Notes under the pieces: model-generated | Databases searched by the model: none | What the model was told of the DNA's origin: nothing | What the model saw: the letters and a program-made list of their open reading frames with translations, nothing else | Program-made: the position numbers and the translations under genes | DNA from: an uncultured Eubacteriales bacterium | GTDB lineage: Bacteria; Bacillota; Clostridia; Christensenellales; Aristaeellaceae | DNA: 64,000 nt | Direction: 5' to 3' | Assembly (NCBI GenBank): GCA_900315675.1 | Contig: OMZY01000001.1 | Span: 434,001 to 498,000 of the forward strand | Shown here: piece after piece, positions 1,904 to 49,985 of the stretch | Position numbering within the stretch: the stretch's first letter is position 1 | How the letters are laid out: every line of letters begins with the position of its first letter

Positions 1904-3067
1904 TTATCTTTCAACAACAGTACAGACAGCATAGGCGGAAATACCTTCCATACGTCCTTCAAATCCGAGATTTTCAGTTGTTGTTGCTTTTATATTGACA
2001 GATGAAACCGGTATATCCAGTTTACCGGAAACCACTTCAAGCATTTGCGGAATGAAAGGCAGAAGTTTCGGCTTTTGTGCAACAATCGTTATATCTGTAT
2101 TAAAAACTTTATATCCGGCCGCTTCAATCAGTTTGTTTGTTTTTTCAAGAAGAAGGACTGATGAAATATCCTTATAGCTGTCGCTGGTATCAGGAAAATG
2201 CTTTCCGATGTCTCCGAGGGCACAGGCTCCGAGCATAGCGTCCATCAGTGCATGAAGCGCAACATCAGCATCACTGTGACCAAGCAAACCCAGATGATAG
2301 GGAATTTCCACTCCGCATAGGATCAGTTTTCGTCCTTCGGCAAGACGATGGACGTCATAGCCCATACCAACACGCATATTCTTTTTTTCTCCTTTTATAA
2401 TTGAAACAGCACGGGATATATCTTCAGGTTCTGTCAGCTTTATATTCTGAGAAGATCCACGTACTACCCTGACAGGAATATGGAAATGCTCCAGAATGCC
2501 GGCATCATCGGTAAAGACAATTCCTGTATCAGCAGCTTTCAGTGCTGCAGGAATAAAAATACCTGCTGAAAACCCCTGCGGGGTCTGTATTTCATACAGA
2601 CCGGAGCGATCAGGGGTATAAAGAACCTTACGGTCTGAATCGCATATTTTATATGTGCTGGAGGCGGGAATGCCGGGAACACCGGATCCGTATAATTTTA
2701 CCGACTCAATCACCCGACTGATCAGATCGTAATCCACAAGACACCTTGCTGCATCGTGTATCAGGATGATATCTTCGTCGCAGACGTCAGTAAGAGCCTT
2801 TATACCATTGAGAACGGATTCCTGCCTTGTATTTCCGCCGGATGTAAAATGAACGGGAAAGGGAAGCGGGGAGAGACTGATCAGATTTCGGATTGTTTTC
2901 TCTTCGTTTTCGCGGCAAACAATAACCATATCATCGGCTGAAGAGATGAAAGCTTCAGCACTGCGCCGTATAACAGCCTTTCCGCACAGTTCAAGCAGGA
3001 CTTTGTTTACAGACGCATTCATTCTTGAGCCTTTTCCGCCTGCAAGCAGAATGACATGATTTTTCAT
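1904..3067 (-). CDS. ispDF: Bifunctional IspD/IspF isoprenoid enzyme
   Basis: A fusion of two enzymes of the methylerythritol phosphate pathway for isopentenyl diphosphate. The N-terminal part (about 1-225) is IspD, the 2-C-methyl-D-erythritol 4-phosphate cytidylyltransferase, with the nucleotide-binding motif LLAGGKGSRM. The C-terminal part (about 230-387) is IspF, the 2,4-cyclodiphosphate synthase, with its metal-site motifs GYDVHRL and HSDADVALHAL. The total of 387 residues fits known IspDF fusions. Its ATG overlaps the stop of rqcP (ATGA), so translation is probably coupled. Cytosolic. Confidence 0.95.
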   Translation of the reverse strand: MKNHVILLAGGKGSRMNASVNKVLLELCGKAVIRRSAEAFISSADDMVIVCRENEEKTIRNLISLSPLPFPVHFTSGGNTRQESVLNGIKALTDVCDEDIILIHDAARCLVDYDLISRVIESVKLYGSGVPGIPASSTYKICDSDRKVLYTPDRSGLYEIQTPQGFSAGIFIPAALKAADTGIVFTDDAGILEHFHIPVRVVRGSSQNIKLTEPEDISRAVSIIKGEKKNMRVGMGYDVHRLAEGRKLILCGVEIPYHLGLLGHSDADVALHALMDAMLGACALGDIGKHFPDTSDSYKDISSVLLLEKTNKLIEAAGYKVFNTDITIVAQKPKLLPFIPQMLEVVSGKLDIPVSSVNIKATTTENLGFEGRMEGISAYAVCTVVER

Positions 3068-3342
3068 GTTCTGTTACGCTCCGTTGCCAGAAAAGCATCT
3101 TCATCCAGGACTTTGTACATGGAAGATGCCATTTCCTTGCTGATTGTATCCTGTACAAGGAGAACTTCATAATGTCCTGTATGTTCTCCGAAACGAATAC
3201 TGATGATATCTCCTGCCTTAATGACAGAAGAGGGTTTCGCAATCCGTTCGTTGATCATGACACGGCCTCCGCTGCAGGCTTCGCTGGCAACGGTACGACG
3301 TTTGATGATTCGTGATACCTTCAGAAACTTATCAATTCTCAT
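3064..3342 (-). CDS. rqcP: S4-domain RNA-binding protein RqcP (YabO)
   Basis: A small S4-domain protein of about 92 residues. It closely resembles Bacillus YabO/RqcP, which acts with RqcH on obstructed 50S subunits to add C-terminal alanine tails to stalled nascent chains. The S4 core is near the N-terminus: MRIDKFLKVSRIIKRR, then a Gly-Gly-Arg-Val loop and an ISIRFG strand. The ATG at 3342 is preferred because GAGGAT lies just upstream; an in-frame GTG at 3354 sits inside that ribosome binding site. Its stop overlaps the start of ispDF. A terminator hairpin for HU lies just before its start, so it may depend on read-through. Confidence 0.85.
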   Translation of the reverse strand: MRIDKFLKVSRIIKRRTVASEACSGGRVMINERIAKPSSVIKAGDIISIRFGEHTGHYEVLLVQDTISKEMASSMYKVLDEDAFLATERNRT

Positions 3343-3362
3343 CTTTATCCTCACAAAACAAA

Positions 3363-3390
3363 GCCCGCAGGAAGCAGTGTTCCTGCGGGC
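3363..3390 (-). terminator. Intrinsic terminator downstream of HU gene
   Basis: A perfect 11-bp stem (GCCCGCAGGAA with TTCCTGCGGGC) with a 6-nt loop, followed on the minus strand by a T-rich run (TTTGTTTTG). It lies 11 nt beyond the HU stop and about 20 nt before the rqcP start, so it should lower transcription into rqcP-ispDF relative to the abundant HU message. Confidence 0.85.
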
Positions 3391-3401
3391 AGAAACGATT
3401 T

Positions 3402-3695
3402 TTATTTCTTCGCCTTTTTCTTGGCGTTAACCTTATCCTTCAGAGCCTTACCGGCTTTAAAAGAAGGCGCCTTGGAAGCTGCGATTTTGATTTCGGCTCC
3501 GGTACGGGGATTGCGGGCAGTACGGGCAGGACGTTTTTTCACATCAAAGGTACCAAAGCCAATCAGCTGTACCTTTTCGCCCTTCGCCAGAGCACAGTTG
3601 ATCGTGTCGACGAAAGCATTCAGAGCTTTTTCGGCATCTTTCTTGGAGAATGATGTTTTTTCTGCCAGAGCATTGATCAGTTCACTCTTGTTCAC
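3402..3695 (-). CDS. hup: Histone-like DNA-binding protein HU
   Basis: A 97-residue HU/IHF-family nucleoid protein that binds and bends DNA as a dimer. The N-terminal helices [14 protein letters not shown], the GFGTF turn and the DNA-contacting arm motif RNPRTG are all present. The C-terminus has a short Lys-rich extension ([10 protein letters not shown]) slightly longer than the usual 90 residues. The start is GTG at 3695, preceded by AAGGAGGAG at ideal spacing, which fits high expression. It lies between yabN/mazG and rqcP, the same neighbourhood as in many Firmicutes. Confidence 0.95.
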
Positions 3696-3760
3696 GGGTA
3701 ATCTCCTCCTTGTCTTTATGCAGGTTGCATAAAAGAATATAAATATGCCAAAGACCGGAA

Positions 3761-5197
3761 TTATTCAATTTCGCCTTCAACATGCTTTAAGTATACACAT
3801 AGTTCACTGAAAGTCAAGCTTTCTAAGGATTTTCCGTCCATGAATATACTCTTTTCAACCTGCTTTACAGCGCTTTTCAGACGATCAGAAGTCTGATGCA
3901 GAATCCATTCACTGTCGAGTTCAGATTGACAGCAGAGAACACAGCAAAGAAAAAGCAATAAGCCACATAAACGGCCCGTTGTTTCAGCGTCATGCCTGCT
4001 TTCCAGCTTTGGGAGAAGGTTCCGGAGTTCTGTAATTACATCTGAAGATGAGATTTCAGCTTTTGTAAAGCGGCTTATCTTTTTGATGATCTTTGAAGCA
4101 TATTTCAGTGAAGGAAGAAAAGCTGAAATATCGTCCAGATTTTCCGAAAGCGTATAATGCCCGGTTTCAGTCTGTTTGATTCTGTCCCACATTGCGGTAT
4201 TATTATCCGGCGCCGACGAATTTTCAGAGAAGACATTGGGATGTCTTCTGATCATTTTCTGACATATCTGCGAAATGATATCATGAATCGAAAACTCATC
4301 AAAATCTTTACCGATGGATGAATGGAATACGATCTGGAAAAGAAGATCCCCTAATTCTTCTCCCAGATGATCAGGGTCATTTTCATCAATTGCGGCAACA
4401 CATTCCCAGGCTTCCTCTATCAGATAAGAACGCAGAGACTGATGGGTTTGCTGCCTGTCCCAGGGACAGCCGTCAGGAGCACGCAGACGCATAACAATAT
4501 CGGCAAGATCCTGCAGAACGTATTTTTCCCTGTGCAGATAATCGGTTCCGGGAATCAGAACAGCAGTAAAATGATTATACATATGCTGACGATCCAGCAT
4601 ATAAAGCTGCAGAGATATCGGTTTGCCGGATTCCTGGATAAGGAAGATGATATGTTCATCCTCCATAACATCCGAAAGAACGAGCTTTATCTGACCGGCA
4701 AGTACTGCATTGTCTATTTCAGTGATTAACAGTGTACAACGCGGATCATAGACAAAAGTGGAAAGAAGATCGTATGCAGGGAGAATCTGGATGGAAGAGT
4801 CCGGAAGATAACTGATTGAAGAGGACAGATGAAGATCATATGAACTGATGCCCGGGACAACTGTAATGAGTATATCCCCGGGAACCCGTCTGAAAAGCAT
4901 TTTAACTGAGCTGTCCGTGTAAGCATCAGGCACGGCATAAACAACGCCTGACGAATGTGCGCTGCGTATTACTTCATCGGCTATAAGCTGTGCCAGCTGG
5001 TCAAAATCCTCGGCATCACCATAAAGCTCATCCAACGTCTGATAAGCAATTTTGTTAGATTCAAGCCAGGCGGTCAGAGGATGGTTTCCTGTACGGAGAA
5101 TGAGCTGTTCTGCTTTCCGCAGCGAATTGATCGTCACGATGTTCAGAAGATCAGGATCTCCCTGACCGATAGATACGATCTTGATTTCATCTTTCAT
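3761..5197 (-). CDS. mazG: MazG-family NTP pyrophosphohydrolase with methylase-like domain (YabN type)
   Basis: A two-domain protein of the YabN/MazG type. The first half (about 1-225) is a tetrapyrrole-methylase-like fold, with [10 protein letters not shown] at the N-terminus. The second half is the MazG domain, starting at about 235 with [16 protein letters not shown] and carrying the EE..E acidic metal site (LIEEAWE and [11 protein letters not shown]). MazG hydrolyses nucleoside triphosphates to monophosphate and pyrophosphate and is thought to clear non-canonical nucleotides; the methylase half has no settled role. It sits upstream of HU on the same strand. Confidence 0.92.
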
Positions 5198-6779: not shown

Positions 6780-8140
6780 TTGTAGAGCACCTCATTCAGG
6801 TCGGAAATGCCTGATTCAACAGAAATGATCACTACATGATCATTTTCCTCTATATGGTCATTACCGAAGGGTACGATGATTTTTCCCTGATGGACGATGA
6901 TGGAAACAAGGGAACCTTTTTTCATTGTCAGTTTTTTGAGCGGAATCCCGATATAGGAATCTCCTTTTCTGGCAATAAACTCAATTGCTTCCGCCTTGCC
7001 GCCTACGAGACGGTACAGTCTTTCTATTTTTGTCCCGTTACTGTTTTCGCGCGCACGAACATAACGCAAAATAGTTGAACTGGTTATAAACTGAGGACTG
7101 ATGACTGAATCAAGACCAAGATCATTCAATATATCCTGATAAGCCAGACGGCTGTTTTTTGCAATCACTTTCGGTACCCCCGAACGGGAGGCATGCATAC
7201 CGGAAATCAGGTTTTCCTCATCCCGGTTGCTGAGTGAAACAAAGGCGTCCATCTGCGACAAACCCTGTTCCTCCAGCAGATCCTGATCTGTACCGTCGCC
7301 GACAATGACATCTACCTTCGGCAGCTGTTCGCTGAGCACACGGGCTTTTACAGGGTTGATTTCAAAAAGAGTAACATGGATCCCCATGGGAACAATCAGT
7401 CTGGAAAGATAATAGGAAATTCTTCCGCCGCCAAGCAGCATAACACTGCGTACTTTATGCTTGTTCCGGCCGAGAAAACGGAAATACTCCGTAATTGTCA
7501 GCATGTCTCCGGAAACAAACACCTTGTCGCCGGGCTGAATCCTGAAATCACCGCCAGGAATCATGACCGTGTTGTTTCTTTCAACCATGGCATAGAGAAT
7601 ACGCGGAAGGCGGGGCAGCTTTCCCGCGAGGTCTTTCATCGGTATGCCGACAAAGCAATCCTCTTCCTGCGCACGGAATTCAACCATCTCCACAAGACCT
7701 TTTGCAAAAGATTCAATACTGCCGGCGAAAGGATAGCGGAGAAGACGGCTGATTTCAAGAGCGGTCGCACGTTCAGGATTGATGGCAACATCAATACCAA
7801 GCTCATTCTGCAGCAGCATCTGGCTTTCATTAAATTCAGGATCGCGGATTCTGGCTAAGGTATAGTTTGCACCCAGACGCTTGGAAATGAGGCATGCAAG
7901 CATATTGCTTTCATCGCTTTCAGTGGAGGCAATGACAATGTTTGCTTTATCTACTCCTGCTTCCAGAAGAATTTTAGCATTTGCACCGTTTCCGCGGATA
8001 CACAGCGCATCAAGTGAACCGCTGCATCTTTCGATTACTTCATCATCTTTATCGATAATAATAACATCATGTTCTTCGGCAATCAGGTGTTCAGCCAGTG
8101 TGTATCCGACTTTACCGGCACCGATAACAATGATTCTCAT
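6776..8140 (-). CDS. trkA: Trk system potassium transport regulator TrkA
   Basis: A cytosolic regulatory subunit of 454 residues that binds NAD(H) and gates TrkH. It contains two RCK modules in tandem: RCK_N at about 1-120 with the Rossmann motif IIVIGAGKVGYTLAEHL, RCK_C at about 140-215, a second RCK_N at about 230-350 (MLLGGGRISYYLSRL) and a second RCK_C at the end. A strong ribosome binding site (GAGGAGGAA) precedes the ATG at 8140. The downstream trkH overlaps it by 4 nt. Confidence 0.94.
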   Translation of the reverse strand: MRIIVIGAGKVGYTLAEHLIAEEHDVIIIDKDDEVIERCSGSLDALCIRGNGANAKILLEAGVDKANIVIASTESDESNMLACLISKRLGANYTLARIRDPEFNESQMLLQNELGIDVAINPERATALEISRLLRYPFAGSIESFAKGLVEMVEFRAQEEDCFVGIPMKDLAGKLPRLPRILYAMVERNNTVMIPGGDFRIQPGDKVFVSGDMLTITEYFRFLGRNKHKVRSVMLLGGGRISYYLSRLIVPMGIHVTLFEINPVKARVLSEQLPKVDVIVGDGTDQDLLEEQGLSQMDAFVSLSNRDEENLISGMHASRSGVPKVIAKNSRLAYQDILNDLGLDSVISPQFITSSTILRYVRARENSNGTKIERLYRLVGGKAEAIEFIARKGDSYIGIPLKKLTMKKGSLVSIIVHQGKIIVPFGNDHIEENDHVVIISVESGISDLNEVLYK

Positions 8141-8169
8141 GATAAGTTCCTCCTCATAAAAATCATTTT

Positions 8170-8198
8170 ATTCTACCATTTTTCCCTCTGCATGAAAA
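8170..8198 (-). promoter_or_regulatory. Probable promoter of trkA-trkH
   Basis: On the minus strand TTTTCA and TAGAAT are separated by 17 bp, about 30 nt upstream of the trkA start. The -35 box is poor. A promoter is needed here because a strong tRNA terminator lies immediately upstream. Confidence 0.5.
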
Positions 8199-8223
8199 GC
8201 TTTTTGAAAAAGCAGAACCCGGC

Positions 8224-8253
8224 AAAAAAACAGTGCAGACAAAGTCTGCACTG
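8224..8253 (-). terminator. Intrinsic terminator of tRNA-Ser
   Basis: A 9-bp stem CAGTGCAGA/TCTGCACTG with a 5-nt loop, followed on the minus strand by seven T residues, beginning 3 nt beyond the tRNA 3' end. Confidence 0.9.
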
Positions 8254-8255
8254 TT

Positions 8256-8346
8256 TGGCGGAGAGTCAGGGATTTGAACCCTGGGTGAGGTATCACCCCA
8301 CACACGATTTCCAGTCGTGCGCCTTAGACCACTCAGCCAACTCTCC
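8256..8346 (-). tRNA. tRNA-Ser (anticodon GGA)
   Basis: A 91-nt class II tRNA with a long variable arm. The acceptor strands GGAGAGT and ACTCTCC pair fully, the discriminator is G and the terminal CCA is encoded. The anticodon loop CTGGAAA gives GGA, reading UCC/UCU serine codons. It has its own promoter and terminator, so it is a single-gene transcription unit. Confidence 0.95.
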
Positions 8347-8372
8347 TCGTCAGCGAATGCTCACGTCGATAA

Positions 8373-8400
8373 ATTATAGCGCCATTTTGCGTTTTGTCAA
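8373..8400 (-). promoter_or_regulatory. Promoter of tRNA-Ser
   Basis: Minus-strand TTGACA and TATAAT, both perfect consensus, with a 16-bp spacer. The -35 box overlaps the stop region of rluB. The -10 box lies about 27 nt upstream of the tRNA. Confidence 0.85.
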
Positions 8401-9101
8401 GGTCTGAGTTTTTCAATTTCCTGATCCGTCAGTTTGCGCCACATTCCGGAAGGAAGATCACCCAGCTGCACAGGACCAAAACGCACTCTTTTCAACCGAA
8501 CCACCTGATGTCCGACAGCTTCAATCATTTTACGAACCTGGCGATTCCGGCCTTCGTGTATCGTAATCAGCAGATCAGTGGAAAATGTATCATGTCTGAT
8601 CAGTCTGACTTCAGCAGGGGAGGTTATTCTGCCGTCAACCATTACGCCCTTGCGCAAAAGCCTTATCTCTTCTTCCGTAACATTGTTGGATACTTTTGTA
8701 AGGTAAGATTTTGGAATTTCAAAGCTCGGATGCAGCAACTGATTCATCAGGTCTCCGTCATTGGTGAGCAGAAGCAGGCCTTCACTGTCATAATCCAGTC
8801 GTCCGACGGGGAAAAGACGTACAGGATAATCGCGAAAACGGTCCATAACGGTAGCGCGTCCTTCGGGATCGGATACTGTTGTAACCTCTCCAACGGGCTT
8901 GTTGTAGGCCAGATAATGCTTCTCCGCTTCGGGAGTGACGGTACAACCGTCTACCTGAACAATATCCGTATTTTCATCCACCTGTGTTCCCAGTATACGT
9001 ATGATCTCTCCGTTTACAGAAACACGGCCATCCAATATGTATTGTTCAGCATTTCTTCTGGACGCGACGCCGCAGGAAGCGAGATATTTCTGAAGACGCA
9101 T
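8397..9101 (-). CDS. rluB: Ribosomal large-subunit pseudouridine synthase (RluB/RsuA family)
   Basis: A 234-residue RNA pseudouridine synthase. An S4 domain occupies about 1-60 (MRLQKYLASCGVASRR), followed by the catalytic domain with the hallmark GRLDYDSEGLLLLTNDG containing the catalytic Asp at about 110. The family isomerises a uridine in rRNA; the Firmicute member corresponds to RluB, modifying 23S rRNA near helix 80, though RsuA-like specificity cannot be excluded by motif alone. It lies 22 nt downstream of proA on the same strand, so co-transcription is likely. Confidence 0.9.
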   Translation of the reverse strand: MRLQKYLASCGVASRRNAEQYILDGRVSVNGEIIRILGTQVDENTDIVQVDGCTVTPEAEKHYLAYNKPVGEVTTVSDPEGRATVMDRFRDYPVRLFPVGRLDYDSEGLLLLTNDGDLMNQLLHPSFEIPKSYLTKVSNNVTEEEIRLLRKGVMVDGRITSPAEVRLIRHDTFSTDLLITIHEGRNRQVRKMIEAVGHQVVRLKRVRFGPVQLGDLPSGMWRKLTDQEIEKLRP

Positions 9102-9123
9102 TATTCAGACTTCCTTTCCATAA

Positions 9124-10422
9124 TCAAAGGGGACAGTTTTCCTGAAGAGGAATATGAGTGTACTGTCTTTTGCCGGATTTCATTTCCTCCATGGTTTGCC
9201 CGGAACCGATCAGTTTATATTTATAGGTTGTCAGCCCCTCCAGTCCCATAGGACCGCGGGCGTGAAGCTTACCGGTTGCAATGCCTACTTCAGCTCCCAG
9301 ACCATATACAAAGCCGTCAGCAAACCTGGTGGATACGTTCCAGTAAACGCCTGCACTGTCCACAGTGTTCATAAAAACAGAAGCGTTTTCCGAATTATTG
9401 GTTACAATGCAGTCTGTATGATGGGAACCGTAATGATTGATGTGATCAATCGCTTCATTCATGGATGAAACCGTTTTTACAGAGAGAATATAATCGAGGT
9501 ATTCTGTTGACCAGTCCTGATCGGTTGCAGGGACACAGGGAATGATACCGGCTGTGGATTCATCACCCCGTATTTCAACATTTCTGGCAGAGAGACTCTG
9601 ATAAAGTTCCGGAAGGAAAACCGGTGCAATATCTTTGTGAACAAGCAGTGTTTCCAGGGCATTGCAGACGGAAACATTTTGAGTTTTACTGTCTGTAACA
9701 ATGCGGCATGCAATTTCAGGATCAGCATCACTGTCAACATAGACATGGCATATGCCGTCTGAATGGCCCAGTACAGGAATACGGCTGTTGTCCATAATAT
9801 AACGAACAAAGCTATTGCTGCCACGCGGTATAATCAGGTCGATCAATGTATCTTCCTTCAGCATCCTGGCCACATCTTCCCGTGTTTCAAGAAGATTCGC
9901 CGCATGGACAGAAAAACCATTTTCTTCCAGCGCCTGACATACAAGGCTGCACAAAGCCTGATTGGTATGAAGCGCCTCACGTCCGCCTTTCAGCAGAACA
10001 GCATTGCCGCTTTTTATACACAGGGATGAAATCTGAATAAGCGCATCGGGACGGCTTTCAAAGATGACACCGATAACACCGATCGGTGAAGAGACCCGGT
10101 ATAACTTCAGTCCTTCGGTTATCTCAGTGGATACAAGCGTTTTATTGAGCGGATCCGGAAGATCGGCAAGTGCATATAGTCCGCGGACAACCTGCTCCAG
10201 TTTTTCTTCGCCGAAAAGCAGACGATGAAGAAGCGGTGCCGCAAGATCTTCTGCGGCTGCTGCGTCAAGATCCTCCCGGTTTGCGATGAAAACAGCCTCT
10301 TTATTCTCTTTCAACAGACGAGCAAGAGATAAGAGTACCTTATTCCGCTGATCAGCAGTTGATACGGATATCTGATAAAAAGCTTTTCTTGCATTGGCGG
10401 CAATTTCATGCAGGTCTTTCAT
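9124..10422 (-). CDS. proA: Gamma-glutamyl phosphate reductase ProA
   Basis: Catalyses the NADPH-dependent reduction of gamma-glutamyl phosphate to glutamate 5-semialdehyde, the second step of proline synthesis. It is an aldehyde-dehydrogenase-fold protein with SPIGVIGVIFESRPDALIQ, the coenzyme-binding KGGREA segment, the catalytic-Cys region NVSVCNALETLLVH and a C-terminal GLEGLTTYKY motif. I prefer the second ATG at 10422 because GGGAGGG abuts the first ATG at 10428. Unusually, no proB (glutamate 5-kinase) is adjacent; proC is 51 kb away in this window. Confidence 0.95.
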   Translation of the reverse strand: MKDLHEIAANARKAFYQISVSTADQRNKVLLSLARLLKENKEAVFIANREDLDAAAAEDLAAPLLHRLLFGEEKLEQVVRGLYALADLPDPLNKTLVSTEITEGLKLYRVSSPIGVIGVIFESRPDALIQISSLCIKSGNAVLLKGGREALHTNQALCSLVCQALEENGFSVHAANLLETREDVARMLKEDTLIDLIIPRGSNSFVRYIMDNSRIPVLGHSDGICHVYVDSDADPEIACRIVTDSKTQNVSVCNALETLLVHKDIAPVFLPELYQSLSARNVEIRGDESTAGIIPCVPATDQDWSTEYLDYILSVKTVSSMNEAIDHINHYGSHHTDCIVTNNSENASVFMNTVDSAGVYWNVSTRFADGFVYGLGAEVGIATGKLHARGPMGLEGLTTYKYKLIGSGQTMEEMKSGKRQYTHIPLQENCPL

Positions 10423-33234: not shown

Positions 33235-33470
33235 AAAACGGTTTTCGCCGGAAGGCGAAAACCGCTGTACCACTTCCATTCAGTATACATGCAGACCAAT
33301 GGCTATGCATACTCTCTGAACGCTGTAGACGGCGAACCGTGTCAGCCTTATTGACGCAGGGCGCGTTCGGGCGACTGCTCCGGGATGTACTTCCTCTGAG
33401 AATGTATACTTCCTTACACCGGACGGAAGCTCTCTGTGATACAACAGTCAGATTACTCTTCCCCTCATTG
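33235..33470 (-). promoter_or_regulatory. T-box leader, probably tyrosine-specific
   Basis: A tRNA-sensing leader on the minus strand upstream of the aminotransferase-tyrS-yigZ operon. Stem I begins with ACAGAGAGC and has the apical segment GGTGTAAGGAAG. The probable specifier is TAC (33387-33389) in GGAAGTACATCC. The T-box sequence GAAGTGGTACAGCGG carries the TGGT that pairs with an ACCA tRNA end. A terminator (11-bp stem CGGTTTTCGCC/GGCGAAAACCG at 33239-33264, then TTTTC) overlaps the antiterminator. Uncharged tRNA-Tyr should allow read-through. Confidence 0.85.
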
Positions 33471-33477
33471 CATGAAT

Positions 33478-45680: not shown

Positions 45681-45686
45681 ATGAAA

Positions 45687-45720
45687 GAGAGCTGACGATA
45701 CAACGTCAGCCCTCTTTTTT
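45687..45720 (+). terminator. Terminator after mreB, likely bidirectional
   Basis: An 11-bp stem with one mismatch (GAGAGCTGACG/CGTCAGCCCTC), 6-nt loop and six T residues on the plus side. On the minus strand the same hairpin follows the ligase gene and ends in CTTTCATT. Confidence 0.8.
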
Positions 45721-48235
45721 ACTGTTTTACACCGCCGGCAGTATCAATACCGGCAGCTCCTACCAGGCCCAGTCTTTCTGCAGCTTCTTCACGCATTTTG
45801 TATTTCAGTACTTTGCCTGCGGCATTCATGGGGAAGGAATCCACAAATTCAATGTACTGCGGAACCTTATGTCTGGCCATATGGGATTTGATGTATTCCG
45901 TCATCTCTTCCTTAGTCAGTTGTTCGCCTTTTTTCAGAATGATACAGGCCATTACAGCTTCACCGTATTTGGCGTCCGGGACACCGATTACCTGTACATC
46001 CGCAACAGCGGGATGAGTATAGATAAATTCTTCAATTTCCTTCGGATAGATATTTTCACCGCCGCGGATGATCATATCCTTCAGTCGTCCGGTAATCAGA
46101 TAAGTTCCGTCCGGATTCCGCCGTGCAAGGTCACCGGAATGCAGCCAACCGTCACTGTCTATCGCCTGATTGGTGGCATCGGGCATTTTATAATATCCCT
46201 TCATGATGTGATATCCTCTGGAGCAGAATTCGCCGTCCTGTCCGTCCGGCAGTTCCTTTCCTGTTTCAGGATCGATCACTTTGGTCTGTACGTGCGGGAA
46301 AGAATAGCCTACGGTTTCGGTCCGCAATTCCAGAGAATCAGTCCAGGCAGACATTGTGCTGCCGGGTGAAGATTCCGTCTGGCCGTAAACACTGACGATG
46401 CCGCGCATATTCATTTCATCCGGCTGGGCGGCCCGTTTCATCAGTTCGGGCGGACATCCGGATCCGGCCATAATACCCGTTCTCATATACGAGAAATCAG
46501 TTTTACGGTAATCTTCATGATTGAACATGGCGATGAACATGGTCGGAACACCGTGGAAACAGGTGATTCTTTCCTGATTGATACAGGCGAGTGAATTCTT
46601 TGCGGAGAAATAGGGAAGCGGACACAGCGTTGTACCGTGCGTCATGGAAGCTGTCATGGCCAGCACCATGCCGAAGCAATGGAACATCGGAACCTGTATC
46701 ATCATACGGTCTGCGGTGGACAGTCCCATACGGTCACCGATACATTTCCCGTCGTTGACAACGTTATAGTGTGTCAGCATGACCCCTTTAGGGAAACCGG
46801 TTGTTCCGGAGGTATACTGCATGTTGCATACATCATCCGGCTTGACACGCTGGATCATGGATTCGAGCGTTTCAACGGGTACGGAATCAGCGCGCTTCAT
46901 AGCTTCCTCAAAAGTCAGACACCCCTGCTGGACATAACCGACGGTAATTACATTTCTGAGGAAGGGAAGCTTTTTACAGTGCAGCGGAGATCCGGCTTTG
47001 GTTTCACTGATTTCGGGACAGAGCTCATTGATAATAGCCCTGTAATTGCTGTCCAGCGCGCTTTCAATCATAACAAGCGTATGAGTATCACTCTGCCGGA
47101 GAAGATATTCGGCTTCGTGTATCTTGTATGCCGTATTGACGGTGACCAGAACCGCACCGATTCTGGTTGCCGCCCAGAAGGTGATATACCATGCCGGTAC
47201 ATTGGTGGCCCAGATAGCCACCTTTGAACCGGCCCGTACTCCCATGGAAATCAGCGCGCGGGCAAAACGGTCCACATCGTCCCTGAATTCAGAATAGGTA
47301 CGGGTGTAATCCAGCGTTGTATACTTGAAAGCATACTGATCCGGGAATTCCTCCACAAGCTGATCCAGCACACGACCGAAGGTGAGATCGATAAGCTCAT
47401 CTTTCTTCCAGATGTATTTACCCGTGCCGTCCTCATTGAAATACAGGCTCTTCTTCTTTCCGCGCGGATTCTCAAACCGGTTCATATAGTTCAGGAAATG
47501 CGGGAAGATAATCTCCCGGTCAGGAATATCCTCAATCCATTCCGTCTTCCATTCAAGGGAAATAAAGCCGTCATAATCGATGGACGAGAGAGCGTTCATC
47601 ATGTCACGGATCGGAAGCGTACCTTCGCCGATGAGATTATATGATCGATCATCGTCTGAATCGCGCAGATGAACATGCTTCACATAGCCGCCCAGGTTCC
47701 TGATGGTTGTATCCGGTATCTCTCCGAAATCGCGGTAGGGATGATGCATATCCCATAATGCGGCGAGTTCATCACAGGCATAACTGTCCATCAATGCACG
47801 AAGTCTGCCGGTATCAGCATAAATTCCGACCGTTTTGATCAGAATACAGACCTCTTCCTCACGGGCCCAGGAAAGGATGCTGTCCAGATTGGATCTGATC
47901 TGATCCTCTGAATCGTGAAGCGCGCAGAAGGCTACATAACGCACTTTCATGGAAGAAGCTGTCTGGATCAGATATCTGACTTTTTCTTCATCTGCAAGGG
48001 AAATGGAAAGGTCGACGGAAGTATCGAAGCAGGGGAGAATCAGCCTGTTTTTCTTCAAATCCCTCAGGGTTTCGTTCAGACTGTAGGCGTGGAAAGCCCC
48101 GCCGCGTCCTGAAAGAGCAGGAAATTCCTGAATATTATAAGGCTCAATACCCTGAAATCCCATATCTACCGCGTCGCGTACCTGTTCATCCCAGCTGAGG
48201 TTGTTCCATCCGCGTGTGGAAAAGGAGAGATTCAT
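45719..48235 (-). CDS. TIM-barrel (sugar isomerase-type)/acyl-CoA ligase fusion protein
   Basis: An 838-residue fusion. Residues 1-255 are a xylose-isomerase-like TIM barrel (AP endonuclease 2 fold) with ligand-like Asp162 (WDMHHPYR), His189 (KHVHLRD) and Glu228 (SLEWK); the usual first Glu appears as Lys134 (ILIKTVG). About 280-838 is an adenylate-forming acyl-CoA synthetase with P-loop YTSGTTGFPKGVML (474 on), YGQTESSPG, the GRLKDMIIRGGENIYP hinge and the catalytic Lys in NAAGKVLK, so it should be active. The substrate is unknown. ATG 48235 overlaps the LeuA-like stop (ATGA), so translation is coupled. Regulated by the upstream T-box. Confidence 0.85.
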   Translation of the reverse strand: MNLSFSTRGWNNLSWDEQVRDAVDMGFQGIEPYNIQEFPALSGRGGAFHAYSLNETLRDLKKNRLILPCFDTSVDLSISLADEEKVRYLIQTASSMKVRYVAFCALHDSEDQIRSNLDSILSWAREEEVCILIKTVGIYADTGRLRALMDSYACDELAALWDMHHPYRDFGEIPDTTIRNLGGYVKHVHLRDSDDDRSYNLIGEGTLPIRDMMNALSSIDYDGFISLEWKTEWIEDIPDREIIFPHFLNYMNRFENPRGKKKSLYFNEDGTGKYIWKKDELIDLTFGRVLDQLVEEFPDQYAFKYTTLDYTRTYSEFRDDVDRFARALISMGVRAGSKVAIWATNVPAWYITFWAATRIGAVLVTVNTAYKIHEAEYLLRQSDTHTLVMIESALDSNYRAIINELCPEISETKAGSPLHCKKLPFLRNVITVGYVQQGCLTFEEAMKRADSVPVETLESMIQRVKPDDVCNMQYTSGTTGFPKGVMLTHYNVVNDGKCIGDRMGLSTADRMMIQVPMFHCFGMVLAMTASMTHGTTLCPLPYFSAKNSLACINQERITCFHGVPTMFIAMFNHEDYRKTDFSYMRTGIMAGSGCPPELMKRAAQPDEMNMRGIVSVYGQTESSPGSTMSAWTDSLELRTETVGYSFPHVQTKVIDPETGKELPDGQDGEFCSRGYHIMKGYYKMPDATNQAIDSDGWLHSGDLARRNPDGTYLITGRLKDMIIRGGENIYPKEIEEFIYTHPAVADVQVIGVPDAKYGEAVMACIILKKGEQLTKEEMTEYIKSHMARHKVPQYIEFVDSFPMNAAGKVLKYKMREEAAERLGLVGAAGIDTAGGVKQ

Positions 48236-49659
48236 GCTTCTTCCTCCTCGTAGACAATCTTGTTTACAGCATTGATATAGGCCATAATGCCTGCTCCGAC
48301 TATATCGGTGGAAATGCCCCGGCCGGAATACAGTTTTCCTTCCCAACGCAGCCTGACAATGGTTTCGCCCATTGCTTCACGGCCCCGGGTGACAGACTGA
48401 ATCTGAAAATCGTCCAGTTCGAAATGCCGGCCGGTAGCCTGCTCAATGGAATTAAAGGCTGCGTCAATGGCGCCGTCGCCGGAAGCAGTACCGGCTATTT
48501 CCTGGTCATGGAACTTCAGCTTCATATGGGCCATTGCACCAATCTGGTTCCCGGTGCTGATGGTATACAGCACATCGTGATAGGCCGGAGGAACCTGCAT
48601 GGCTTCCGCCGCGATGATTGCTTCAAGTTCCCTGAGGGTAATATGATCTTTTTTCTCGGCAGTCTGGCAGAAACATTTCCAAACTTTCTGCTGATCATCT
48701 GCATTCAGATCATACCCGAGCTTTTCCGCTGCATGCATAACAGCTTCAATGGAATCATGGATGCTCAAAACATAATCGGAATCCTTGTTTTCTTCTTCAA
48801 AACCGGAGATAATGTCATGTTTCTTTCCGGAAGACTGACAGATCATACCGACCTGGCCTGTGATGCGGCGGATCTGTTCCACCCCGACTTTTGTACAGAC
48901 ACCCAATGAACCACCTTTGATATTCAGCAGGCGTACAATATTAGGCAGTGAAATGGCTGTTCCGCTGCAGGTTGTTGCCTTGATTTCACGGACTCCGGAG
49001 CGGATAGCGGATACAGCATTTGCGTCTGCCATATTCAGTTCTCCCGAGCAGAAAAAGCCCATGGTGACATTTTCAAGAGCCGGAAGATCCTTTTTCAGGT
49101 TTTCAAGCCAGGCTGCAATTTCATCCGGCATCATCGTACCTGCTGTATCACAAAGCGTTACAGCACCTGCGCCGGCTTCAATTGCTGCAGACAGTACTTT
49201 TACCAGGAAAGCCGGATCGCTTCTTGTGGCATCCTGTGCAATAAATTCCACATTCGCAGTCAGTTCACGGCAGGCGGTGACCGCTTTTGTGACCGTGCGA
49301 ATCATGGCTTCAGTTTTCATATGGAGGAGGTATTCCATCTGTACAGAACTTACGGGCACAACAACCTGAAGACGGGGATTTACAGCTTCTTTCAGGGCTT
49401 CCCAGGTAATCCTGACAGATTCATCGTCTGTGATACTGACAGGGACAGCGACAGAAGCATTTTTAACCGCAGAACATATGGATTTAACCAAAAGCCGGTC
49501 GATCTTTTTCTGGCGGATCGGGCTCAGATCGATGGAAGAAACGCCCAGCTTGTCAATAAGCCGGCACAGTTCGATTTTTTCCTTGAAACTGAGCTGAAAA
49601 TGATTTTCAGCCTCCGGCAGTGTACAATCGCATACATTTACAAGTTCAGGTCTGTTCAT
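48232..49659 (-). CDS. LeuA-like protein lacking catalytic metal ligands, with leucine-regulatory domain
   Basis: A 475-residue homologue of 2-isopropylmalate synthase. The N-terminal barrel has lost the active site: the DTTLRDGEQ motif reads D11-C-T-L-P-E-A-E-N19, and the metal-binding HxHND reads F203-C-S205-G-E, although flanking sequence (LNMADANAVSAIRSG) aligns well. The C-terminal LeuA regulatory domain (about 358-468) is complete, including GDGAIDAAFNSIEQATG and GRGISTDIVGAGIMAYINA. It is therefore probably a pseudoenzyme or has a new activity. ATG 49659 has AAGGAGG 8 nt upstream. It is controlled by a leucine-type T-box and coupled to the fusion ligase downstream. Confidence 0.85.
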   Translation of the reverse strand: MNRPELVNVCDCTLPEAENHFQLSFKEKIELCRLIDKLGVSSIDLSPIRQKKIDRLLVKSICSAVKNASVAVPVSITDDESVRITWEALKEAVNPRLQVVVPVSSVQMEYLLHMKTEAMIRTVTKAVTACRELTANVEFIAQDATRSDPAFLVKVLSAAIEAGAGAVTLCDTAGTMMPDEIAAWLENLKKDLPALENVTMGFFCSGELNMADANAVSAIRSGVREIKATTCSGTAISLPNIVRLLNIKGGSLGVCTKVGVEQIRRITGQVGMICQSSGKKHDIISGFEEENKDSDYVLSIHDSIEAVMHAAEKLGYDLNADDQQKVWKCFCQTAEKKDHITLRELEAIIAAEAMQVPPAYHDVLYTISTGNQIGAMAHMKLKFHDQEIAGTASGDGAIDAAFNSIEQATGRHFELDDFQIQSVTRGREAMGETIVRLRWEGKLYSGRGISTDIVGAGIMAYINAVNKIVYEEEEA

Positions 49660-49681
49660 GTAGGAAACCTCCTTGAAAAAT

Positions 49682-49952
49682 AAAACCCTGAAGCATTTGG
49701 CTTCAGGGACGAAAAGCAATTTCCGCGGTACCACCCAGTTTACTCCATTAAGGGAGTCACTTTTTTGAACTCAATCAAGTTCTCAGCCTGTTACGGGGCG
49801 TCCGGATTTCCTTACTGACGAGGCGTTCAGGAAACCAACTCCGGAAGCAGTTTCCCTGTACTCGGCACCGTTTCGCAGCATCCAACGGCTCTCTGTAGCG
49901 TCTGAAACAGGGATTATCATCCATCATCGTCTTTAACAACTATGAAATTATC
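49682..49952 (-). promoter_or_regulatory. T-box leader, probably leucine-specific
   Basis: Minus-strand leader upstream of the LeuA-like gene. The T-box motif GGGTGGTACCGCGG (49723-49736) is canonical; its TGGT fits the ACCA end of a tRNA with discriminator A, such as tRNA-Leu. Stem I starts at ACAGAGAGCC. Aligning GGAAACTGCTTCC with GGAAGTACATCC of the tyrosine leader places CTG (Leu) at the specifier position. A terminator (9-bp stem CCCTGAAGC/GCTTCAGGG at 49686-49708 then TTTTATTTTT) follows the antiterminator. This explains the 480-nt gap upstream of the gene. Confidence 0.88.
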
Positions 49953-49956
49953 ATGG

Positions 49957-49985
49957 ATACTATCATAATTCTGTTAGACTGTCAA
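49957..49985 (-). promoter_or_regulatory. Promoter of the leucine T-box operon
   Basis: Minus-strand TTGACA and TAGTAT separated by 17 bp; transcription would start near 49950 and include the whole T-box. Confidence 0.85.

Follow-up and report, generated by a model that had tools for sequence, protein, structure and literature searches.

The 64,000-nucleotide stretch analysed here (the window: contig OMZY01000001.1 of an uncultured Eubacteriales bacterium, positions 434,001 to 498,000), from a bacterial group that occurs in the guts of animals, includes a gene encoding a homologue of LeuA, 2-isopropylmalate synthase, in which the positions of the active site have been replaced while the domain that senses leucine in LeuA is retained. 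This protein, named here pseudo-LeuA, belongs to a real and conserved pseudoenzyme family. It is encoded together with an acyl-CoA ligase behind a predicted leucine T-box, and we consider it probable that the dead enzyme is the leucine-sensing subunit of this ligase, which would start the route that leads from isovalerate to leucine by carboxylation. The two genes and their parts are located as follows.

48232..49659, reverse strand: pseudo-LeuA, 475 amino acids, ATG start at 49659
48973..49635, reverse strand: degenerate HMGL-like barrel of pseudo-LeuA, residues 9-229
48256..48642, reverse strand: LeuA_dimer regulatory domain of pseudo-LeuA, residues 340-468
48232..48235, reverse strand: ATGA overlap of the pseudo-LeuA stop and the ligase start
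45719..48235, reverse strand: fusion of a xylose-isomerase-like barrel (AP_endonuc_2) and an acyl-CoA ligase (AMP-binding, AMP-binding_C), 838 amino acids

A LeuA homologue without catalytic residues

A Pfam scan of pseudo-LeuA found an HMGL-like domain (110.5 bits) and a LeuA_dimer domain (97.8 bits). The latter match spans positions 2-130 of the 131 in the profile and the regulatory domain is therefore complete, which agrees with an earlier note, made from the letters of this DNA, that had described a LeuA homologue with a complete C-terminal regulatory domain. The domain order and fold of LeuA are present according to Pfam, an AlphaFold2 model with a predicted local distance difference test score of 86.9, and structure matches. 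Since the predicted template modelling score of this model is 0.59 and its alignment to full-length LeuA gives a root-mean-square deviation of about 9-13 Å, only the domain folds are claimed and the placement of the domains is left aside. Pseudo-LeuA falls below the curated cut-off of every NCBIfam LeuA model that it matches, the best score being 278.7 of 532 bits; TIGR00973 gives 255.6 bits for a cut-off of 598.7.

Alignment with solved LeuA structures shows that the motif DTTLRDGEQ reads DCTLPEAEN and HCHDDL reads FCSGEL in the window protein, as had been noticed before, so that the metal Asp, first His and second His are replaced by E, F and S, respectively, and the substrate Arg by Pro; the ING(I/L)GERAGN loop is gone. 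The same places were then tabulated for 125 homologue rows and four intact LeuA proteins of the same order. The rows came from 45 loci in the genomes of relatives and 80 in genome_contigs, at least seven contigs being in both sets. The metal Asp is kept in three rows, the first His in two and the second His in none, and the places of the Asp and the first His vary among Q, R, E, G and A, and among S, A, G, D and F, respectively. The substrate Arg is kept in 25 of the 125 rows and the Asn of INGIGER in one, and GER is absent from all of them. In the HEAGIHQHG linker the first His is never kept and the second is deleted in every row. Judged by this alignment, pseudo-LeuA is a LeuA-fold protein devoid of the metal, substrate and catalytic-histidine positions, and the pseudoenzyme that the earlier note had proposed is well supported.

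Other residues are held. The Tyr of the MEY motif and the Asp and Arg of DATR are invariant in the barrel of all 125 rows, S104, E109 and K115 are invariant across 23 aligned pseudo-LeuA sequences, and the regulatory domain retains the motifs GDG(P/A)IDA and GxGxSTDI. The former active-site places show only loose majorities, namely Lys or Arg in 89 rows at the place of the substrate Arg, Gln in 81 at that of the metal Asp, and Ser in 79 at that of the second metal His, and thus there is no sign of a new catalytic set that has become fixed.

Conservation of the two domains

Pairwise identity averages 40.2% for the barrel and 64.6% for the regulatory domain among 15 pseudo-LeuA proteins from different genera; for ten LeuA proteins the averages are 53.5% and 41.6%, respectively. 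The regulatory domain is the better conserved of the two in 105 of 105 pseudo-LeuA pairs versus 0 of 45 LeuA pairs, an inversion that is expected of a protein kept for its sensor. The ratio of nonsynonymous to synonymous substitution rates (dN/dS) of pseudo-LeuA to four close relatives is 0.052-0.077, a rough figure as dS exceeds 1; by domain, the same four comparisons give 0.015-0.039 for the regulatory domain and 0.053-0.082 for the barrel. The 23 pseudo-LeuA rows sampled for a tree form one clade with support 100/100. In this tree, which was rooted by midpoint only, the ten LeuA rows do not lie on one side of any branch (two changes). Pseudo-LeuA thus combines the loss of catalytic residues with a single origin from an enzyme, as would be expected of a dead-enzyme sensor and, judged by gene order and overlap, it is also produced together with one catalytic partner.

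The partner ligase

The stop codon of pseudo-LeuA and the start codon of the ligase share the sequence ATGA, in agreement with the earlier view that the fusion ligase is co-translated. The overlap could be measured in 123 of the 125 loci and is present in 92 of these. The survey of the pairing across genomes that had been suggested on that occasion places the ligase directly downstream of pseudo-LeuA at 79 of the 80 genome_contigs loci; in the exception the contig breaks off no more than 150 nt further on. Of the 45 loci of relatives, 44 have a match to the ligase, and the contig of the other (L003) stops immediately after pseudo-LeuA. The adenylation motifs YTSGTTGFPKG and RGGE and the C-terminal Lys are present in 78 of 78 full-length ligases, a set made up of the window sequence plus those from 77 of the 95 loci, partial or interrupted sequences having been dropped. 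By its motifs, the partner is an intact acyl-CoA ligase of the ANL group. The mean identity to the window fusion is 80.5% for the ligase part and 53.7% for the N-terminal barrel, and the best NCBIfam model for the ligase of this leucine unit is PRK12583 (670.8 of 832 bits).

The N-terminal barrel of the fusion (residues about 19-233) carries Lys in 61 of the 78 sequences, and Glu in 12, at the place that we take to be that of the first metal Glu of xylose-isomerase-like barrels. As Lys stands for the metal Glu in most sequences, this barrel may also be non-catalytic. ARAGORN placed a tRNA-Ile across the 3' terminus of the fusion gene (45685-45779 of the window, reverse strand); it was not called by Rfam and is therefore probably false.

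The T-box leader

The region upstream of pseudo-LeuA includes the following elements.

49957..49985, reverse strand: promoter-like site TTGACA-17-TAGTAT with TG extension, 10/12 matches
49702..49936, reverse strand: T-box leader (RF00230), full model, 115.1 bits for a gathering score of 93, E 3.7e-26
49848..49850, reverse strand: predicted specifier codon CUG (Leu); most homologues have a Leu codon in the same register
49730..49733, reverse strand: UGGU bulge predicted to pair with tRNA ACCA (discriminator A), TGGT in 99 of 100 T-boxes
49686..49708, reverse strand: predicted intrinsic T-box terminator, a 9-bp stem followed by TTTTATTTTT
49668..49674, reverse strand: ribosome binding site AAGGAGG, located by eye

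The structure of RF00230, a leucine specifier and a matching bulge are all present, and by these sequence features the leader is a T-box riboswitch of the tRNA-Leu type; the tRNA-Leu(GAG) encoded in the window has discriminator A. The promoter-like site is suggestive only, since the region has seven such sites and shuffled sequences 6.0. A T-box motif lies upstream of pseudo-LeuA in 100 of the 125 rows. A strict script assigned the specifier in 85 of these 100 T-boxes and found Leu in 72 of them, while registers shifted by one or two nucleotides code for mixed amino acids. It misplaced some specifiers into the apical loop, and by eye the leaders of L010, L031, L035, L038 and L042 have CTG or CTC at the expected place. 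A looser script (Leu in 57 of 59) accepted Leu if any candidate in the stretch was Leu, and the strict one was preferred for this reason. In the loci inspected the specifier is CTG within the genus of the window and CTC in most others; CTT and CTA also occur.

Threonine (ACU) and cysteine (UGC) specifiers were considered and rejected, as no register other than CUG/CUC is conserved among the homologues and the bulge matches an A discriminator. In addition, a second T-box of the window (33248-33477, reverse strand), located before genes for a class I/II aminotransferase and a tyrosyl-tRNA synthetase, reads TAC (Tyr) by the same rule.

Genes of the leucine pathways

In loci L038 and L043 pseudo-LeuA and the ligase are followed by genes for IlvE, a P-loop protein, and VorB and VorA, and in L041 the same IlvE, P-loop, VorB and VorA genes lie just upstream of the pair. 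The P-loop protein of L038 (11157-11825, between ilvE and vorB) has 222 amino acids and is CbiA/ParA-like by a weak Pfam match; a homologue was found in 27 of 95 pseudo-LeuA loci.

The genome of the window (95.66% complete) includes the ligase, a branched-chain 2-oxoacid ferredoxin oxidoreductase (VOR) and a branched-chain aminotransferase, the VorB and IlvE matches being over their cut-offs with 567 and 496 bits, respectively. In the same genome there was no match to IlvC, no LeuB over the cut-off and no second LeuA-type match.

Among 120 relatives, including this genome, pseudo-LeuA was found in 49 and LeuA in 27, with both in one (G057). In L046, a locus of G057, the LeuA sequence (about 3057-4461) is spread over different frames, perhaps as a relic of the replaced pathway or through an assembly error. 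The 49 genomes with pseudo-LeuA have, over cut-off, IlvC in 2, LeuB in 1 and VorB in 45. When only genomes at least 90% complete are counted, the 26 with pseudo-LeuA have LeuB in 0, IlvC in 2 and LeuA in 1, versus 24, 21 and 20 of the 45 without it. Tests of this kind are inflated by the relatedness of the genomes; outside the genus LeuB is found in 0 of 15 genomes with pseudo-LeuA versus 28 of 60 without (Fisher p 6e-4), and IlvC in 2 of 15 versus 24 of 60 (p 0.07).

The TIGR00170 model for LeuC gave no match over cut-off in the 120 genomes and weak matches in 101, and the LeuC of this order was taken to be of another type. Ten of the 27 LeuA genomes have no LeuB over the cut-off, and the presence of LeuA is for this reason an imperfect proxy for a complete pathway. 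Genomes with a LeuA-type match and no LeuB over the cut-off are G056, G065, G068, G071, G073, G076, G077, G103, G106 and G057; in the six loci inspected (L193-L198), no ligase was seen beside the LeuA of LeuB-less genomes.

Ligases with isoleucine and valine T-boxes

The same genomes encode other acyl-CoA ligases, with an N-terminal cupin domain, located beside the leucine unit or apart from it; one of those scanned, in L042, also has a helix-turn-helix domain. The two scanned match the NF047394 (MbcS) model best, with about 428 bits for a cut-off of 850. Specifiers of the T-boxes before such cupin ligases were read in 70 rows, some of which are from loci that are copies of others, and the first candidate was used when there were two. 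AUC (Ile) was read in 35 rows and GUA or GUC (Val) in 23; the remaining 12 had no motif or were unassignable, two of them with a clearly misplaced reading. The genome of the window has one isoleucine unit (L078, AUC) and one valine unit (L093, GUA), and in L044 leucine, isoleucine and valine units are found in a row. Examples of cupin-ligase units with Ile or Val T-boxes are the following.

L044, 1-8229
L040, 6886-15001
L031, 7047-16001

The sister units are predicted to form a set for the use of 2-methylbutyrate (Ile) and isobutyrate (Val). The three kinds of unit together are those that would be required by a cell that makes leucine from isovalerate, isoleucine from 2-methylbutyrate and valine from isobutyrate.

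Proposed role of pseudo-LeuA

The inverted conservation of the domains, the ATGA coupling, the constant pairing and the leucine T-box strongly suggest, at the level of sequence, a sensor subunit acting with the ligase, and the operon is likely to be the leucine-controlled entry step of isovalerate carboxylation. When charged tRNA-Leu is low, uncharged tRNA-Leu would bind the T-box through the CUG specifier and the UGGU:ACCA pairing, a response expected from the T-box family, and transcription would read through into both genes, whose products would be made together by translational coupling. The ligase would convert isovalerate to isovaleryl-CoA, VorAB would carboxylate the latter to 4-methyl-2-oxopentanoate, and IlvE would aminate this 2-oxoacid to leucine. 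Plentiful leucine would then bind the regulatory domain inherited from LeuA, and the signal would pass through the dead barrel to the ligase and shut it down. The sensor of the lost LeuABCD pathway would in this way have been handed to the first enzyme of the replacement route. The earlier note had suggested an unknown pathway for the protein; the evidence points to a known one, the carboxylation of isovalerate to leucine. We also favour, with somewhat less assurance than the role of the subunit itself, a broader scenario in which LeuABCD was replaced by isovalerate carboxylation, the dead first enzyme docked on the new first enzyme as its leucine sensor, and this unit together with the ligases under Ile and Val T-boxes makes up a set with which many bacteria of the gut and the rumen form all three branched-chain amino acids from branched short-chain acids.

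Several observations weigh against this proposal. The choice of isovalerate as substrate comes from regulation and gene context rather than from the ligase sequence, and vorB and ilvE lie in the same locus in only 13 and 14 of 95 loci, respectively. Genomes G042, G043, G050 and G053 have pseudo-LeuA and no VorB over the cut-off, and IlvC is found in G050 and G053 and LeuB in G043. The genome of the window has a LeuC-/LeuD-like pair (L055, G000:C36, about 7772-9282). The four LeuA proteins have a Glu a short way past STD(I/V); it is Gly in the pseudo-LeuA rows inspected, and because of changes such as this one the ligand could differ from leucine. No LeuA-like partner was seen with the isoleucine and valine ligases, so that ligases of this kind seem not to need one. 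As for the T-box, 25 of the 125 rows have no motif, an Rfam search of 12 such loci finding a T-box in one, and the strict script gave non-Leu specifiers in 13 of 85 and left 15 T-boxes unassigned. The distribution outside the order is also thin in the phylum-wide sample.

By eye, the gene next to the LeuC-/LeuD-like pair of L055 looks like one for a GntR-type regulator.

The barrel could instead have acquired a new reaction, for instance on isovaleryl-CoA or on the 2-oxoacid of the same pathway, a view that we regard as unlikely. The MEY Tyr, the DATR Asp and Arg, the three residues invariant in the 23 aligned sequences, and the loose majorities at three old catalytic places are in its favour. 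However, the Tyr (in three of four), the Asp and the Arg are shared with LeuA and so may be part of the scaffold; the positions of the former chemistry vary, GER and the second linker His are missing throughout, and the barrel is the less conserved domain. It seems slightly less likely again that pseudo-LeuA is an activator or scaffold of the ligase with no leucine sensing of its own, the T-box being the sole means of control. The T-box does already predict leucine-dependent expression, and the pairing and coupling would fit an obligatory complex, but the regulatory domain is under stronger selection than the barrel and the retention of GDG(P/A)IDA and GxGxSTDI is hard to explain without the binding of a ligand.

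That the operon serves another process, such as priming the synthesis of branched-chain fatty acids with isovaleryl-CoA or scavenging acids, appears improbable. According to a passage of PMC10026030 an acyl-CoA synthetase of S. aureus does so, and most of the 95 loci include neither vor nor ilvE; on the other hand, the leucine-specific T-box, the triad completed by the Ile and Val T-boxes, the loci with ilvE and vorBA, and the absence of ilvC and leuB point to amino acid supply. A decaying pseudogene or a sequencing error, finally, could be read from the destroyed motifs and from a stop inside the open stretch of pseudo-LeuA in G053. This explanation, of which the earlier note had raised the sequencing error, is refuted: the other full-length matches listed have no stop, the loss is common to the 45 and 80 homologues, the dN/dS values are low, every one of the 13 genomes sampled from the genus with a completeness of 90% or more has the gene, and genome_contigs holds at least 584 related stretches. 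The sensor subunit is the explanation that we prefer over these four.

Comparison with known systems

When compared to LeuA, for example that of Mycobacterium tuberculosis (PDB 3FIG), pseudo-LeuA has no metal ligands, catalytic linker His or GER loop, its substrate Arg is mostly gone, its linker is shorter and its domain conservation is inverted. According to a passage of PMC11057210, LeuA binds leucine in pockets at the interface between the regulatory domains of its dimer. In the short-form ATP phosphoribosyltransferase, as described in a section of PMC9734150, the non-catalytic subunit HisZ binds the end product histidine and controls HisG_S, the separate catalytic subunit of the first step. 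By analogy, pseudo-LeuA is proposed to be the end-product-binding subunit of a first enzyme. HisZ is derived from histidyl-tRNA synthetase; pseudo-LeuA, in contrast, descends from the first enzyme of a lost pathway and has an acyl-CoA ligase as its partner, and its allostery is a prediction.

The formation of leucine from isovalerate by carboxylation and amination has been known in the rumen since the 1960s (a passage of PMC7356843, citing Allison 1962 and 1966). The ligase, VOR and IlvE genes fit this route. In the open-licence PubMed Central literature searched, we found neither a gene assignment or feedback regulator for isovalerate carboxylation nor a paper on a LeuA pseudoenzyme or on this operon. 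The sister ligases resemble MbcS of Staphylococcus aureus in their best-matching model, but differ from it in their score, in the N-terminal cupin and in the Ile or Val T-boxes; the ligase of the leucine unit differs from these MbcS-like ligases in having PRK12583 as its best model.

The gene set provides isovalerate carboxylation with candidates for its activating enzyme and its feedback subunit, and with a T-box switch. With the isoleucine and valine units, genomes could be read for the branched short-chain acids that their owners are able to convert to amino acids, a matter of relevance to isoacid feeding and to cross-feeding in the gut. If the proposal is correct, pseudo-LeuA would be a clear example of an enzyme that lost its activity and was preserved for its allosteric site, the inverted domain conservation being a signature that can be measured, and feedback control would have passed from one route to leucine to another, unrelated one.

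Distribution

The 11 sampled members of the genus in which pseudo-LeuA was not found are 54-85% complete. In a phylum-wide sample, 4 of 398 genomes gave matches at E 1e-60 or better: that of the window, G172 (40% identity), and G361 and G203 (32-33%), the last two left unclassified. Of the related stretches in genome_contigs, at least 584 in number, the best 80 were those examined, and the matches in this collection include contigs titled Eggerthellales, Coriobacteriaceae and Eggerthellaceae (L182, L186 and L187). The phylum-wide count and these outlying contigs indicate a family found mostly in this order, with scattered members elsewhere.

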